In this document: positions 4,092 through 64,000 of the stretch, in pieces
Layout: the number at the start of each line of letters is the position of its first letter
Numbering within the stretch: the stretch's first letter is position 1
Assembly: GCA_903887775.1 (NCBI GenBank)
Contig: CAISRB010000024.1
Location: forward strand, 248,001-312,000
DNA from: an uncultured Bacteroidales bacterium
Lineage (GTDB): Bacteria; Bacteroidota; Bacteroidia; Bacteroidales; FEN-979
Direction of reading: 5' to 3'
Length of the DNA: 64,000 bases
The notes under the pieces: model-generated
The model's input: only the letters and a program-made list of their open reading frames with translations
Told to the model about the DNA's origin: nothing
The model's database searches: none
Translations under genes and position numbers: made by a program

Positions 4092-4157
4092 AAAAATAGC
4101 GAAATAGCGAAATACCGAAATTGTGTTTAGCGAAGCACATCGCACAAGCCGCCTCAG
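4092..4157. repeat. Octamer word repeat plus partial dispersed element
   Basis: AAATAGCG, AAATAGCG, AAATACCG is followed by GTGTTTAGCGAAGC and then GCACAAGCCGCCTCAGG. The latter part aligns with the element inside mfd (around 62745-62777) and with the TIR element at 40169-40183. It occupies the gap between the DUF4249 gene and the downstream lipoprotein gene. Confidence 0.7.
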
Positions 4158-4180
4158 GATATATTCACTATAACGATCCC

Positions 4181-18359: not shown

Positions 18360-18426
18360 TACTTACTTCATTTGTTTATAGCTCGTATTCACGCAACGCT
18401 GCAGCGCCTTATCTGCGTTCAATCAA

Positions 18427-18530
18427 AGGTATTCCAAAGCTCAGTTTTTTCCAAAATTTCACTTCGATTAGCTAAGGCAGCTTTTGCGGAATACCTCGCT
18501 ATTTCACTACTTCTCTATTTCCATGCCTTT
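18427..18530. repeat. Inverted-repeat element plus TAGTGAAATAGCGAGG words
   Basis: AGGTATTCCAAAGCT (18427-18441) pairs with AGCTTTTGCGGAATACCT (18479-18496), a 15-bp stem with a 3-nt bulge around a 37-nt centre. On the minus strand it is preceded by octamer words (GAGAAGTAGTGAAATAGCGA) that include the methyltransferase stop codon. It fills most of the 155-nt gap before the LolC/E-type gene and may act as a terminator or a mobile remnant. Confidence 0.65.
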
Positions 18531-28113: not shown

Positions 28114-30105
28114 ATGAAGAATTTCTTTCAACCAACATTATTGTCGCCATTTCGCTTTCTCTCTACCTCACTACCTCCCTATTTCGCTTTTCGCATTTCG
28201 CTTTTCGCATTTCACTACATCGCTACCTCGCTACCTCGCTTTCTCCCTATTTCGCTACTTCTTTTCTTCTTAGTTCCCCTGACAACAGCCGCCCAGGACC
28301 ACCCTGCAGGGAGCAACATCCTTCCTTTTCAGCAAAATGCAGTAACCGCCGATAATGAGGACCAGATGGCCATGCAGTTTTTTCAGACCAGGAACTTTGA
28401 GAAAGCGGCCGAACTGTTTTCCCGCATTTATGCAAAAAAGCCGACTTATTACAATTACACTTACTATTTCTATTGCCTGATAGAAATACGCGATTTCGAT
28501 GAGGCAAGGAAGCTTATCAAAACCCAGCAGAAAGCCGATCAGAATACGCTGAAATACCAGGTGGACCTGGGCTATGTATATTTCAGGGAAGGAAACACCG
28601 GGAAGTCCAAAAAGATGTATGATGAAGCCCTTAAACACTTAACCGCTGACCCGGCCCAGGTTTTTGATCTGGCTAACTCCTTTTATTCGAAAGGAGAATT
28701 CGACTACGTGATCCGCACATATAAAAAAGGACGGGAAATGATGCCTTCGAACAACACTTACGGTTTTGAACTTGCCGGGGTTTACGAACGCACCGGGAAC
28801 TTTGAGGGAGCCATTGAAGAATACCTGTACATGATCACTCAGAATAAGGATTTTGAATCTACCGTTCGGGACCGTCTCCAGGAACTTCTGGCCCGGGATG
28901 ATGATAATTCAAAAAATGAATCTTTCAGAAAGATCCTTTTGGAACATATTCAGAAGGAACCCGATAAAGTATGGTATTCTGAGCTTTTATGGTGGTACTC
29001 CATACAGCAGAAGGATTTCGAACTGGCATTAATCCAGGCTAAGGCGCTGGACCGCCGCCTGAGGGAAAACGGCAGCCGCATCATAGACCTTGCTGAACTA
29101 GCGGTCTCCAATGGGAACTACAAGGTGGGTGAAGAAGCATACAACTATATTATCGCGAAAGGACCTTCAAATGATTACTTTGAAACCGCCCGAAGGGAAA
29201 AGCTGCACACGAAATATCTTTTGCTCACAGGGAACCCAGGGGCCCTGACCCGGGATTTCGTGGAATTGCAGAAATCAATGATCGCTGAACTCAGAAGTTG
29301 GGAAAATGATCCCATATCAGTCAGCCTTGCCCTGGATCTTGCCCATCTTGATGCCTTTTACCTCGACCATTCCGATGAAGCTCTTGACCTGCTCAACCGG
29401 GTTATCAAATGGAAAGGCCTCAGTGAAAAAGAACGTGCAGAGGTTAAAACAGAACTGGCCGATATCCATCTTTACCATGGGGATATGTGGACTGCCACAG
29501 TACTATACCAGCAGGTTTACAGGGATTTTAAAAACGATGCAATCGGGCAGGAAGCCAAGTTCAGGAATGCACGCCTTTTGTATTATATGGGGGAATTTGA
29601 GTGGGCCAGGGCCCAGCTTGATATCCTTAAAGCGGCAACCACGAAATTCATTGCCAATGATGCCCTGGAACTTTCAATGCTGATCAGCAACAATTACGAC
29701 CCCGACAGCAATACCGTGGCATTGGGAATATATTCCCGTGCCGGGCTTGCAGATTTCAGGAACAGGGAAAATCTGGCTCTGCAGACCCTCGATTCGATCC
29801 CTTTGCTCTTCAAAATACATCCCATTCTCGATAATGTAATTTACCGAAAGGGCGAGATCTATAATAAACTGGGAAAATACATTCTCGCCGACTCGATGTT
29901 TGCCATTGTCATCAGGAACCACCCGGAAGATATCATCACCGATGAAGCCATGATGAACAGGGCCCTGATCCATGAAACCAGGCTGGGAGATAAACAGGGG
30001 GCAATGACGCTTTACCAGGAGCTGCTGAATACATACCCCGGAAGTCTTTTTGTACCGGAAGCAAGGAAACGATACCGCACCCTGAGGGGTGATATGCTGC
30101 AATAA
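28114..30105 (+). CDS. Tetratricopeptide-repeat protein, exported, with repeat-derived N-terminus
   Basis: A 663-residue protein. After residue 70 it is helical with successive TPR-like units (for example FEKAAELFSRIYAKKPTYYN and LGYVYFREGNTGKSKKMYDEA), which bind other proteins. Two further TPR units near the C-terminus contain KLGKYILADSMFAIVIRNHP. The first 60 residues are unusual. They are hydrophobic, aromatic and proline-rich (RISLFAFHYIATSLP, then FLPISLLLFFLVPL), and residues about 11-50 are encoded by reverse-complement TTTCGC/CTACCTCG words. The hydrophobic core ending in TTAAQ still looks like a signal peptide. AAGG precedes ATG 28114; no other ATG occurs before residue about 84. 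It overlaps no gene, and rsmA follows after 1 nt. Confidence 0.82.
   Translation: MKNFFQPTLLSPFRFLSTSLPPYFAFRISLFAFHYIATSLPRFLPISLLLFFLVPLTTAAQDHPAGSNILPFQQNAVTADNEDQMAMQFFQTRNFEKAAELFSRIYAKKPTYYNYTYYFYCLIEIRDFDEARKLIKTQQKADQNTLKYQVDLGYVYFREGNTGKSKKMYDEALKHLTADPAQVFDLANSFYSKGEFDYVIRTYKKGREMMPSNNTYGFELAGVYERTGNFEGAIEEYLYMITQNKDFESTVRDRLQELLARDDDNSKNESFRKILLEHIQKEPDKVWYSELLWWYSIQQKDFELALIQAKALDRRLRENGSRIIDLAELAVSNGNYKVGEEAYNYIIAKGPSNDYFETARREKLHTKYLLLTGNPGALTRDFVELQKSMIAELRSWENDPISVSLALDLAHLDAFYLDHSDEALDLLNRVIKWKGLSEKERAEVKTELADIHLYHGDMWTATVLYQQVYRDFKNDAIGQEAKFRNARLLYYMGEFEWARAQLDILKAATTKFIANDALELSMLISNNYDPDSNTVALGIYSRAGLADFRNRENLALQTLDSIPLLFKIHPILDNVIYRKGEIYNKLGKYILADSMFAIVIRNHPEDIITDEAMMNRALIHETRLGDKQGAMTLYQELLNTYPGSLFVPEARKRYRTLRGDMLQ
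28146..28262 (-). repeat. TTTCGCT/CTACCTCG word array (reverse arm, coding)
   Basis: Reverse-complement words of the 27826-28074 array (CCATTTCGCTTTC, CTACCTCA, CTACCTCC, CTATTTCG, CTTTTCGCATTTCG, CTACCTCGCTACCTCG) run through codons about 11-50 of the TPR gene. The two arms could form a very large stem. Confidence 0.9.
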
Positions 30106-40127: not shown

Positions 40128-40134
40128 TTAAATC

Positions 40135-40242
40135 GTGAGGACGAGATGTTACCGGAGCGAGACATTTTGCATAAGCGGCATCAGGTCTAGCGCAGCGAAC
40201 CCTAGCCGCGTTGCAAAGATGCGAGCGACGTCTCGTCCTCAC
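40135..40242. repeat. 108-bp palindromic element with terminal inverted repeats
   Basis: GTGAGGACGAGATG (40135-40148) is the inverse of CGTCTCGTCCTCAC (40229-40242) at 13 of 14 positions. Inner arms (TTTGCATAAGCGGC and GCCGCGTTGCAAA) also pair imperfectly, so the whole unit can fold into one long hairpin. Bases 40169-40228 align with 62760-62819 inside mfd at 51 of 60 positions. It contains no gene and no clear target-site duplication. It resembles a MITE or REP-like element. Confidence 0.8.
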
Positions 40243-40245
40243 AAT

Positions 40246-61610: not shown

Positions 61611-64000
61611 GTGAATCCCGATGACCTGATCGAACAATATTTCCAGGATTCCAGGACCATTGCGGTTTCGGAAGCCCTGAACGGCATGCCCCGTGCACGT
61701 TTCAGTCTTAAAGGACTCATCGGGTCATCCAGGTCATTTGTTTGCGCTTCGATCGTAAAAAAAAGCCCCCAGGTACACCTGGCCATCCTCCCCGACAGGG
61801 AGTCGGCGGCATATTTCCTCAATGACATTGAGCAGATCCTTCGGGAAAGTTCTGCAGGCAGGGAGAATAAAAGTGTTCTTTTTTTCCCTTCCTCGTTCAA
61901 AAAAGGCGTTCTGACGGGGCATAAAGATAACCAGGGCTTACTCCTGAGGACCGAGATTCTGAACCGCCTGAATACCCATTCGGGAAGTTTATTTATTGTA
62001 ACATATCCCGAAGCTCTGGCTGAGAAAGTAGTCAGCCGGAAATTCCTTGAAAAGAACACTCTTAAGCTTACGGTCGGGGAACAGGTGAGCATGGATTTTA
62101 TTCTTGATTTGCTGGTCGAATATGATTTTGAGCGGGCTGATTTCGTTCTGGAACCGGGGCAGTTTGCTCTCAGGGGTGGATTAATTGATGTCTATTCCTT
62201 CAGCAATGACCATCCATACAGGATAGAATTTAGCGGGAACAGCATTGCTTCAATACGGACATTCGACCCTTCGGCCCAGTTGTCTCTTGAGAAAAAGGAA
62301 AGCATAACGATAGTGCCGGATATTCGGGTGAACCCGGAAAAACAAACCGCGTATGAGCCCCTTTTAAGTTTTCTTCCCGAAAAATCGGTTATCTGGCTCG
62401 ATGATACGGAATTCTGCACAGGACAAATGGATAAACTCGCAGGATCTGAGCTTTTAATGAAAGGAAAAGAGTTCCTGCCCCTGTTGCTGGAATTTTCTTC
62501 TGTTGAATTCGGGAAGCAGTTTTACTTTAAAAATTCCCGGCTGATAGAATTCAGCACTGCGCCCCAGCCTTCCTTTAACAAGAGTTTTGATTTGCTGATG
62601 GCTGATCTCCGCGAACACGCCGCAAACGGTTACAGGAATATGATCCTGGCCGACGGCCCCAAACAAGCCGACAGGCTGAAGGAGATATTGGATGACCTGG
62701 ATGCAGATAGTGAAATGGTGAAATGGCGAAATGGGGAAAATATATCAGCGAAGCAGCTTGCACAAGCGGCATCAGGTGGAGCGCAGCGAACCTTAGCCGC
62801 GGTGCAGGATTGCGAGCGATTTAGGGTGATTCTGTTGCCAATTCACGAAGGCTTCGTTGACCATGACCTGAAACTTCTTTGCTATACCGACCACCAGATC
62901 TTCGAACGTTATCATCAGTTTCATCTTAGGGAGGGTTACACCAGCAAGGAAGCGCTGACACTGAAAGAAATTTATGATCTGAAGCCAGGCGATTATGTAA
63001 CGCATATTGACCATGGCGTAGGACGTTTCGACGGGCTCGAGAAGATCGTGAACAATGACAGGGAACAGGAAGCCATCCGCCTTATTTATAAAAATGAAGA
63101 CGTTCTTTATGTAAGTATTCATTCGCTTCACCGTATTTCAAAATATATTGGTAAAGAGGGAACTGCACCCACCCTGAACCGGCTGGGTTCGGACTCATGG
63201 AATAAGCTGAAAGCCAAAACGAAGAGCCGTGTTAAGGATATTGCACGTGATCTTATTAAGCTTTACGCTGAAAGAAAAGCCACTAACGGATTTGCCTTTG
63301 CGCCGGATACTTACCTTCAAACTGAGCTTGAAGCATCTTTCATTTACGAGGATACGCCAGACCAGATCAAATCGACCCTGGATGTTAAGAAAGACCTTGA
63401 GGCTGATTTTCCGATGGATCGCCTGGTATGCGGCGATGTTGGCTTTGGCAAGACCGAGATTGCAATCAGGGCTGCATTTAAAGTAGTTGCAGATTCGAAA
63501 CAGGTGGCGATCCTGGTTCCTACGACCATCCTTGCTCTTCAGCATTACAAGACGTTTTCGGAAAGGCTGAGGAATTTTCCATGCCGGGTTGAATACATAA
63601 ACCGTTTCAGGAGCGCCAGGAAGCAAACCCAGATCATTCATGAACTGAAGGAAGGGAAAGTTGATATTCTGATAGGAACACACAGGATACTTGGAAAGGA
63701 TTTACATTTCAGGGACCTGGGCTTGCTCATCGTAGACGAAGAACAAAAATTCGGGGTAGCTGCAAAGGAGAAAATGAAAAGGCTCAGGGTGAATGTTGAT
63801 ACACTTACCCTCACTGCCACGCCTATTCCGAGAACACTTCAGTTTTCCCTGATGGGAGCGAGGGACCTTTCAATCATCAACACGCCTCCGCCTAACCGGT
63901 TTCCAGTTCAGACCGAGATCCACACCTTTCATGAAGATGTGTTCAGGGAAGCCATCAGCAATGAATTATCAAGGGGAGGTCAGGTTTTCGTTGTTAATAC
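61611..64000 (+). CDS. mfd: Transcription-repair coupling factor Mfd (3' truncated by window)
   Basis: About 797 codons from GTG 61611 ([11 protein letters not shown]) to the window edge; no ATG gives a plausible start. The UvrB-like module occupies about 1-340 ([16 protein letters not shown]). The RNA-polymerase-interacting domain begins near 455 ([17 protein letters not shown]), and the translocase begins near 590 (Walker [10 protein letters not shown], motif [10 protein letters not shown], motif [12 protein letters not shown]). It removes stalled polymerase and recruits UvrA. Residues about 368-404 ([14 protein letters not shown] and on) sit in a region that normally runs straight into LPIHEGF. 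They are encoded by the dispersed repeat element, so they look like an in-frame insertion. Confidence 0.95.
62712..62819. repeat. Repeat element inside the mfd reading frame
   Basis: GTGAAATGGTGAAATGGCG words are followed by CAGCGAAGCAGCTTGCACAA and a 60-bp block (62760-62819). That block matches 40169-40228 at 51 of 60 positions, counted by hand. It keeps the frame and has no stop codon. Confidence 0.85.

Follow-up and report, generated by a model that had tools for sequence, protein, structure and literature searches.

In a 64,000-nucleotide (nt) stretch of DNA from an uncultured Bacteroidales bacterium (GenBank assembly GCA_903887775.1, contig CAISRB010000024.1, positions 248,001 to 312,000; hereafter the window), we found that mfd, the gene for the transcription-repair coupling factor, contains an in-frame copy of a dispersed hairpin repeat, R1, placed directly behind an array of 8-nt tandem units. 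We consider it probable, at roughly 70%, that this insert is one case of a family-wide, recurring process, in which permissive protein loops are colonised in frame by repeats that are translated with the host gene, in the manner of the Rickettsia palindromic elements (RPEs). The features concerned are the following.

61611–63998, + strand: 5′ part of mfd (Pfam UvrB_inter, RID, DEAD, Helicase_C and TRCF)
62707–62739, + strand: 8-nt tandem array of the AGTGAAATG/GCGAAATG type, directly 5′ of the hairpin and in the mfd frame (period 8, score 17.5)
62747–62821, + strand: R1 hairpin element, in-frame copy within mfd (covariance model, BLAST)
62753–62779, + strand: left arm of the R1 hairpin in mfd (C24:310753–310779)
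62791–62818, + strand: right arm of the R1 hairpin in mfd (C24:310791–310818)
40156–40230, + strand: R1 copy upstream of a gene provisionally labelled serS, within an outer inverted repeat, 40132–40149 / 40228–40245 (covariance model)

Counted from the putative start codon, a GTG at 61611, mfd encodes 1135 residues and extends past the window end. The array and the 75-nt imperfect hairpin of R1 together add about 36 codons, and the reading frame is uninterrupted across both, as a preliminary description of this DNA had reported. That description placed the feature at 62712–62819, limits that are now replaced by those of the array and of R1, and it took the flanking GCGAAAT words for matches to other repeat sites. 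Their repeat nature held, and the upstream words turned out to form the 8-nt tandem array, whose score was reached by none of 200 shuffles. The reported match of 62760–62819 to 40169–40228 at 51 of 60 positions was exact and is part of a longer alignment, 62747–62819 against 40156–40228, with 82% identity over 73 bases (E 1.2e-16 by BLAST within the window). When 18 other genomic copies, but not that of mfd, were used to build a covariance model, the model recovered 62747–62821 at 81.5 bits (E 2.6e-20).

The insert occupies approximately residues 366–404 of Mfd, between a predicted helix (350–373) and a predicted strand (405–408), in a part of the protein that we take to be domain 3, after E. 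coli Mfd. The Pfam RID (RNA-polymerase-interacting) domain follows at 457–513, in agreement with the position first proposed, ahead of that domain. The segment running from RL to HEGF is 57 residues long in the window, as compared with 22–50 residues (median 25) in 80 named Bacteroidota Mfd loci, of which only one has at least 45; the congener G001 has 19. The initial statement that the site is uninterrupted in other Mfd proteins fails for the close relatives, in which the loop is hypervariable and other species carry unrelated sequences. The residues of the insert themselves were present in none of the Mfd proteins checked outside the genus (29 relatives, and the 80 named loci, inspected for lengths and long loops only), as an insertion absent from distant genera would predict. 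The sole long loop among the 80, of 50 residues, belongs to a named metagenome-assembled genome (L268) and contains SPLPFEEGWGEA; it resembles a translated repeat, as an impression only.

R1 occupies the identical site of mfd in the genome of the window (G000) and in G003 and G005, where the copies score 71.4 and 70.7 bits, and is absent from the site in the congeners G001, G006 and G007. It would already have been in mfd of the common ancestor of the three species that carry it, and would persist there by virtue of a length that is a multiple of three, the lack of a stop in frame and a loop tolerant of extra residues. The insert is presumably translated.

The R1 family and its copies in genes

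Scoring of 150 of the 763 first-look candidates in G000 gave 44 covariance-model matches to R1, 43 of them at E ≤ 4.2e-6 and one weak; the genome thus holds at least 43 good matches, which is a lower bound. A BLAST search of the same genome found R1 at 26 places. The copies are imperfect hairpins with a left and a right arm. A single unit measures about 75 nt, and many copies are nested and longer, with additional arms to one side or to both; in some of these, the outer and inner arm pairs appeared by eye to be unlike each other, each pairing with itself. In an alignment of 18 copies, again without that of mfd, 90.6% of the cells paired, as compared with 83.7% in shuffles, cells changed on both sides numbered 36 (12.9 in shuffles), and the covariation score was 0.241 (0.115 in shuffles). 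Among 61 genomes, R1 was matched in all eight of the genus (2–41 matches each), in two of 29 other members of the family, with one match apiece, and in none of 24 genomes of other families. The element is therefore nearly confined to the genus.

A known Rfam RNA was rejected as an identity for R1, since four R1-bearing loci (L001, L005, L006 and L017) gave no Rfam covariance-model match up to E 0.5. Repetitive extragenic palindromes (REPs) driven by a REP-associated tyrosine transposase (RAYT) were likewise rejected, because the one Y1 transposase gene (PF01797) found in G000 lies in a locus without an R1 match (L095). Spread by a resident reverse transcriptase is unsupported, PF00078 being found in none of nine genomes, G000 and five congeners among them.

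A search requiring open frames identified 12 in-gene R1 copies at a total of six sites in four genes, each of them sense-oriented (e.g., window 62747–62821, L090, L190–L193, L204 and L207). Translated copies elsewhere, which the preliminary description suggested looking for, may thus exist in a MurF-Alr fusion, Lnt and an amino-acid permease. In G000, where 41 of the 43 good matches and the weak one were compared with open reading frames (ORFs), leaving out C12:106834 and C24:266377, two of the 42 were in frame in clearly identified proteins, namely Mfd and the MurF-Alr fusion. Other matches spanned by open frames (L061, L062, L064, L077, L080, L084, L088, L089 and L092) were judged by eye to be antisense or 5′ of the real start. 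Elsewhere, R1 lies in frame at MurF site 1 of the congeners G001, G003 and G005, at MurF site 2 of G001 and G002, in Alr of G003 (interrupting the alanine racemase domain match), and in Lnt and the amino-acid permease of G005. Three of the 17 R1 places checked in G005, out of 37, were spanned by such genes. Across 41 genomic copies, the three antisense frames were open 22, 28 and 8 times and the sense frames 6, 8 and 12 times, the antisense frames being more often open.

Arrays in core proteins and around IVP genes

Arrays with 7- or 8-nt units recur in the loops that hold R1. In the best-scoring 30 of the 61 genomes for each protein, G000 included, significant 7/8-nt periodicity was detected at the Mfd loop in 15, at MurF site 2 in 16 and at MurF site 1 in 13, as compared with 0 of 30 for a conserved 46-codon Mfd segment used as a control. 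Loci that have R1 without a significant array add to these counts (Mfd, L028 and L029; MurF site 2, L097 and L099; MurF site 1, L097, L098 and L108). At one and the same loop, in Mfd as in MurF, the array unit varies between species. The picture thus goes beyond the preliminary description: the mfd copy of R1 is common to three species, unrelated repeats occupy the same loop elsewhere, and MurF-Alr and other core proteins are affected likewise. MurF site 2 of two further species (L104 and L105) holds an in-frame CCCCTAAATCCCC-type palindrome, which represents a further repeat family.

We surveyed 464 kb of G000 and 341 kb of another genome, G010, for arrays, using a simple longest-ORF caller. 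Of 60 merged 7/8-nt arrays in G000, 12 lay within ORFs of at least 200 residues, although 92–94% of the DNA was in called ORFs; the same was true of 3 of 48 arrays in G010, although 90% of its DNA was in called ORFs. AAAAGCG was the unit of 27 of the 60 arrays in G000. The array hosts scanned with Pfam were PolA, Lnt, a leucyl aminopeptidase, MurF-Alr, a flavin amine-oxidase-like protein, a DNA polymerase III delta′-type protein and an FAD-linked oxidase, and further hosts named by eye were MutS, MeaB, a SelD fusion and an Eco57I-like protein. In PolA, the array starts at residue 295, between the 5′-nuclease domain (to 269) and the 3′-exonuclease domain (from 381).

Similar arrays surround genes of PF05635, the 23S rRNA intervening-sequence protein (IVP), which is present in 35 of 41 genomes, with four genes in G000 and up to 22 in relatives. 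At 32 of 33 IVP loci, all but L234, whose sequence was too short, 300 nt of left flank were aligned to the reverse complement of 300 nt of right flank; G000 contributed four loci and every other genome its best one. Flanks began 20 nt beyond the hidden Markov model match for IVP genes and at the ORF ends for control genes. Inverted flanks (score ≥20) were found at 22 of the 32 IVP loci, as compared with 3 of 173 control genes, and among these three, one was itself an IVP gene and one was YraN-like by eye. Most of the arms consist of 7/8-nt arrays, with units that differ from element to element. Locus L212 folds as one long stem with the IVP gene in the loop (z −11.2); its (GCGAAAA)n arm corresponds to the commonest array unit of G000, the one counted in 27 of 60 above, which is also the unit within PolA, Lnt, MurF and a MutS-like protein. 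In G016, the unit of the IVP arm matches that of the MurF array. The IVP elements read at L212, at L213 and between nuoJ and nuoK lie beside protein genes, not in 23S rRNA.

The nuoJ-nuoK spacer (gene names by eye) was compared in 11 genomes. A PF05635-type gene within inverted GAATATT-type arrays was present in G000, G002, G005, G007 and G008 (in G007 at 31.7 bits, below the cut-off of 33.8), an array of the GAATATT type only in G004, arrays of other units in G003, G006 and G010, a stub in G001, and a longer spacer with arm-like ends in G009. This alternation, which leaves R1 itself untied to IVP elements, is the strongest indication that a solo array and an IVP element are two states of the same thing. 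The 7/8-nt arrays would then be related to IVP elements, in which a four-helix-bundle gene of PF05635 stands between inverted arrays, and at least some solo arrays may be their gene-less form. PF05635 is described as resembling Avd, the accessory protein of diversity-generating retroelements (PMC10053308), a likeness that at most hints at nucleic-acid handling. Three of the four IVP genes of G000 (C7:343630, C19:43189 and C12:323588, in L210, L211 and L213) have an R1 copy no more than 1.5 kb away; as read, the flanks of these genes are other repeats or none, and we therefore draw no connection between R1 and IVP genes from their proximity.

Explanations for the insert

If in-frame colonisation of permissive loops is what produced the mfd insert, hairpin repeats and 7/8-nt arrays would insert in spacers genome-wide at a high rate, most genic insertions would be purged, and the survivors would be those lying in frame within core proteins, in a loop or linker; different species would end up with different repeats in the same loops. 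Insertion is the likely route of R1 and the arrays into genes, with purifying selection presumably acting as the frame filter. In AlphaFold2 models, residues 368–401 of Mfd and residues 88–96 and 343–362 of MurF, all within the insert regions, had a predicted local distance difference test score (pLDDT) below 50, so that the structural check envisaged in the preliminary description did place the Mfd insert in a segment of low model confidence.

Several observations weigh against this explanation. Low pLDDT is non-specific, as other, conserved segments of the Mfd and MurF models also fell below 50, and the Mfd model was poor overall (mean pLDDT 69, predicted template modelling score 0.42). The mfd insert alone folds no better than shuffles (z −0.71), and one of the five covariation measures for R1, that of further pair types, was not above the shuffles (17 vs 18.2). 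Neither R1 copies nor arrays showed an insertion junction, a target duplication or a recent empty site; a target-site duplication of the type left by miniature inverted-repeat transposable elements (MITEs) is hard to judge because the congeners are too diverged, with third codon positions 49–72% identical among the three R1-bearing mfd genes. The association of R1 with arrays is weak, these being found upstream of 7 and downstream of 1 of 41 copies, as compared with 3 and 4 of 63 controls. Of the arrays, only 5 of 48 in G010, but 32 of 60 in G000, had an inverted partner no more than 250 nt away, and the description as a gene-less IVP element therefore does not fit every array. In addition, the YraN-like gene of G000 (named by eye; C7:233188–233547, in L154) is also bracketed by inverted 8-nt arrays, so that arrangements of this kind are not exclusive to IVP genes.

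The loop might instead be a low-constraint, slippage-prone segment, in which short repeats arise and expand in place without any mobile element. The differing array units at the same loop in different species would fit this idea, as would the low model confidence predicted for the loop segments, and slippage has been proposed for the heptamer repeats that are over-represented in many bacteria, as described in PMC4692102 and PMC4679880. We nevertheless consider it unlikely, since R1 is a sequence-conserved 75-nt family with so many good matches in the genome and is therefore no slippage product, and since the units of genic arrays are found again in many of that genome's spacers, as AAAAGCG is in G000. 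Selection of the insert for a function, such as a new binding segment in Mfd, rather than its toleration, would be suggested by the identity of the insert between G000 and G005, which is 0.836; the 1200 coding bases that follow give 0.805 and third codon positions 0.492, and the mfd copy of R1 is therefore not drifting freely. However, exchange with other R1 copies could equally preserve the similarity, so that the protein, the hairpin and such exchange are all candidates for the source of the constraint. Considering also that the three congeners mentioned above lack R1 there and that other species have unrelated sequences, we regard a selected function as very unlikely.

It is more improbable still that the stretch stays untranslated, its hairpin being bypassed by the ribosome or cut from the mRNA like the intervening sequences (IVSs) of 23S rRNA. 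The hairpin does show paired differences between Mfd orthologues, and 23S rRNA IVS elements are described as being cleaved out by RNase III (PMC4990558). Nevertheless, the in-gene R1 copies keep their frames open, which would be needless under bypass (a weak argument, since the search demanded open frames), and cleavage without religation would be expected to sever the mRNA. Returning to in-frame colonisation, a wider version of it, which we put forward tentatively and regard as rather doubtful, is that Bacteroidota IVP elements are mobile RNA hairpins, in which each lineage or copy rebuilds both arms, with a new unit, as inverted 7/8-nt arrays, and which the Avd-like four-helix-bundle protein drives or protects. 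Solo arrays and R1-like hairpins would be their gene-less offspring, and together they would refill the same loops of essential enzymes with disordered segments. If true, mobile IVP hairpins would constitute a continual source of new disordered protein segments in essential enzymes.

Related systems and further repeats of the window

RPEs are described as dispersed palindromic repeats, mostly intergenic and in some cases in frame in conserved proteins; in-frame palindromic repeats are on record in Rickettsia and enterobacteria, and the RPE-bearing enzyme Gmk is translated and active (PMC2229807). R1 is likewise dispersed, palindromic and of stem-loop form, with its in-frame copies in the four genes listed above, and by this analogy the mfd insert would work like an RPE insertion. 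The likeness, already drawn in the preliminary description, applies to a dispersed palindromic repeat in frame in mfd and does not extend to mobility, for which neither a target duplication nor a recent empty allele was found. RPEs measure 105–146 bp and belong to Rickettsia, whereas R1 is about 75 nt long, belongs to one Bacteroidota genus and is often nested; moreover, the loops holding R1 also receive unrelated 7/8-nt arrays in other species. Because the lengths differ, we do not class R1 as an RPE, the likeness being one of description.

In the Coxiella IVS, terminal inverted repeats are reported to form a long stem, with a PF05635-type gene in its loop (PMC4990558). A PF05635 gene in a stem loop is also indicated here, by flank score at the 22 IVP loci and by folding at L212, but wherever flanks were read, the IVP elements of these genomes occupy spacers that separate protein genes, and 7/8-nt arrays make up most of their arms. 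In mfd, the R1 copy differs further in that it sits in a protein gene and holds no gene. Heptamer repeats of Xanthomonas, Nostoc and Beggiatoaceae are characterised as dispersed 7-nt tandem arrays, mainly intergenic (PMC4692102, PMC4679880), whereas the present arrays have many units per family, form inverted arms at IVP genes and occur repeatedly in frame in core proteins. Tandem repeats of Borgs also lie within genes and are stated to yield largely disordered protein segments, with units divisible by three (PMC9879509), in contrast to units of 7 or 8 nt here. Another Bacteroidota element combining tandem repeats with inverted ends, the BrickBuilt MITE of Porphyromonas gingivalis, has a 23-nt unit and is always intergenic according to its abstract (PMC4596501), unlike the 7/8-nt arrays, which are also genic.

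IVP-element arms may be a source for part of the heptamer-repeat excess in bacteria; by title or abstract, no prior paper linking the two was found in the open-licence literature. With dozens of species having R1, other repeats or nothing at one and the same loop of a given core protein, a comparison between them amounts to a natural experiment on how new segments are tolerated by proteins.

Two further repeats of the window are related to R1.

18377–18500, − strand: R1 copy with a long extra stretch in the loop (36.7 bits)
4094–4158, + strand: 8-nt array and left arm only, with no right arm according to the model (BLAST; no covariance-model match)

At 28181–28258 of the window, 7/8-nt arrays with an inverted partner nearby lie at the N-terminus of a TPR-like ORF and possibly 5′ of its real start; this site is counted among the 12 genic arrays of G000 despite the uncertain ORF start.
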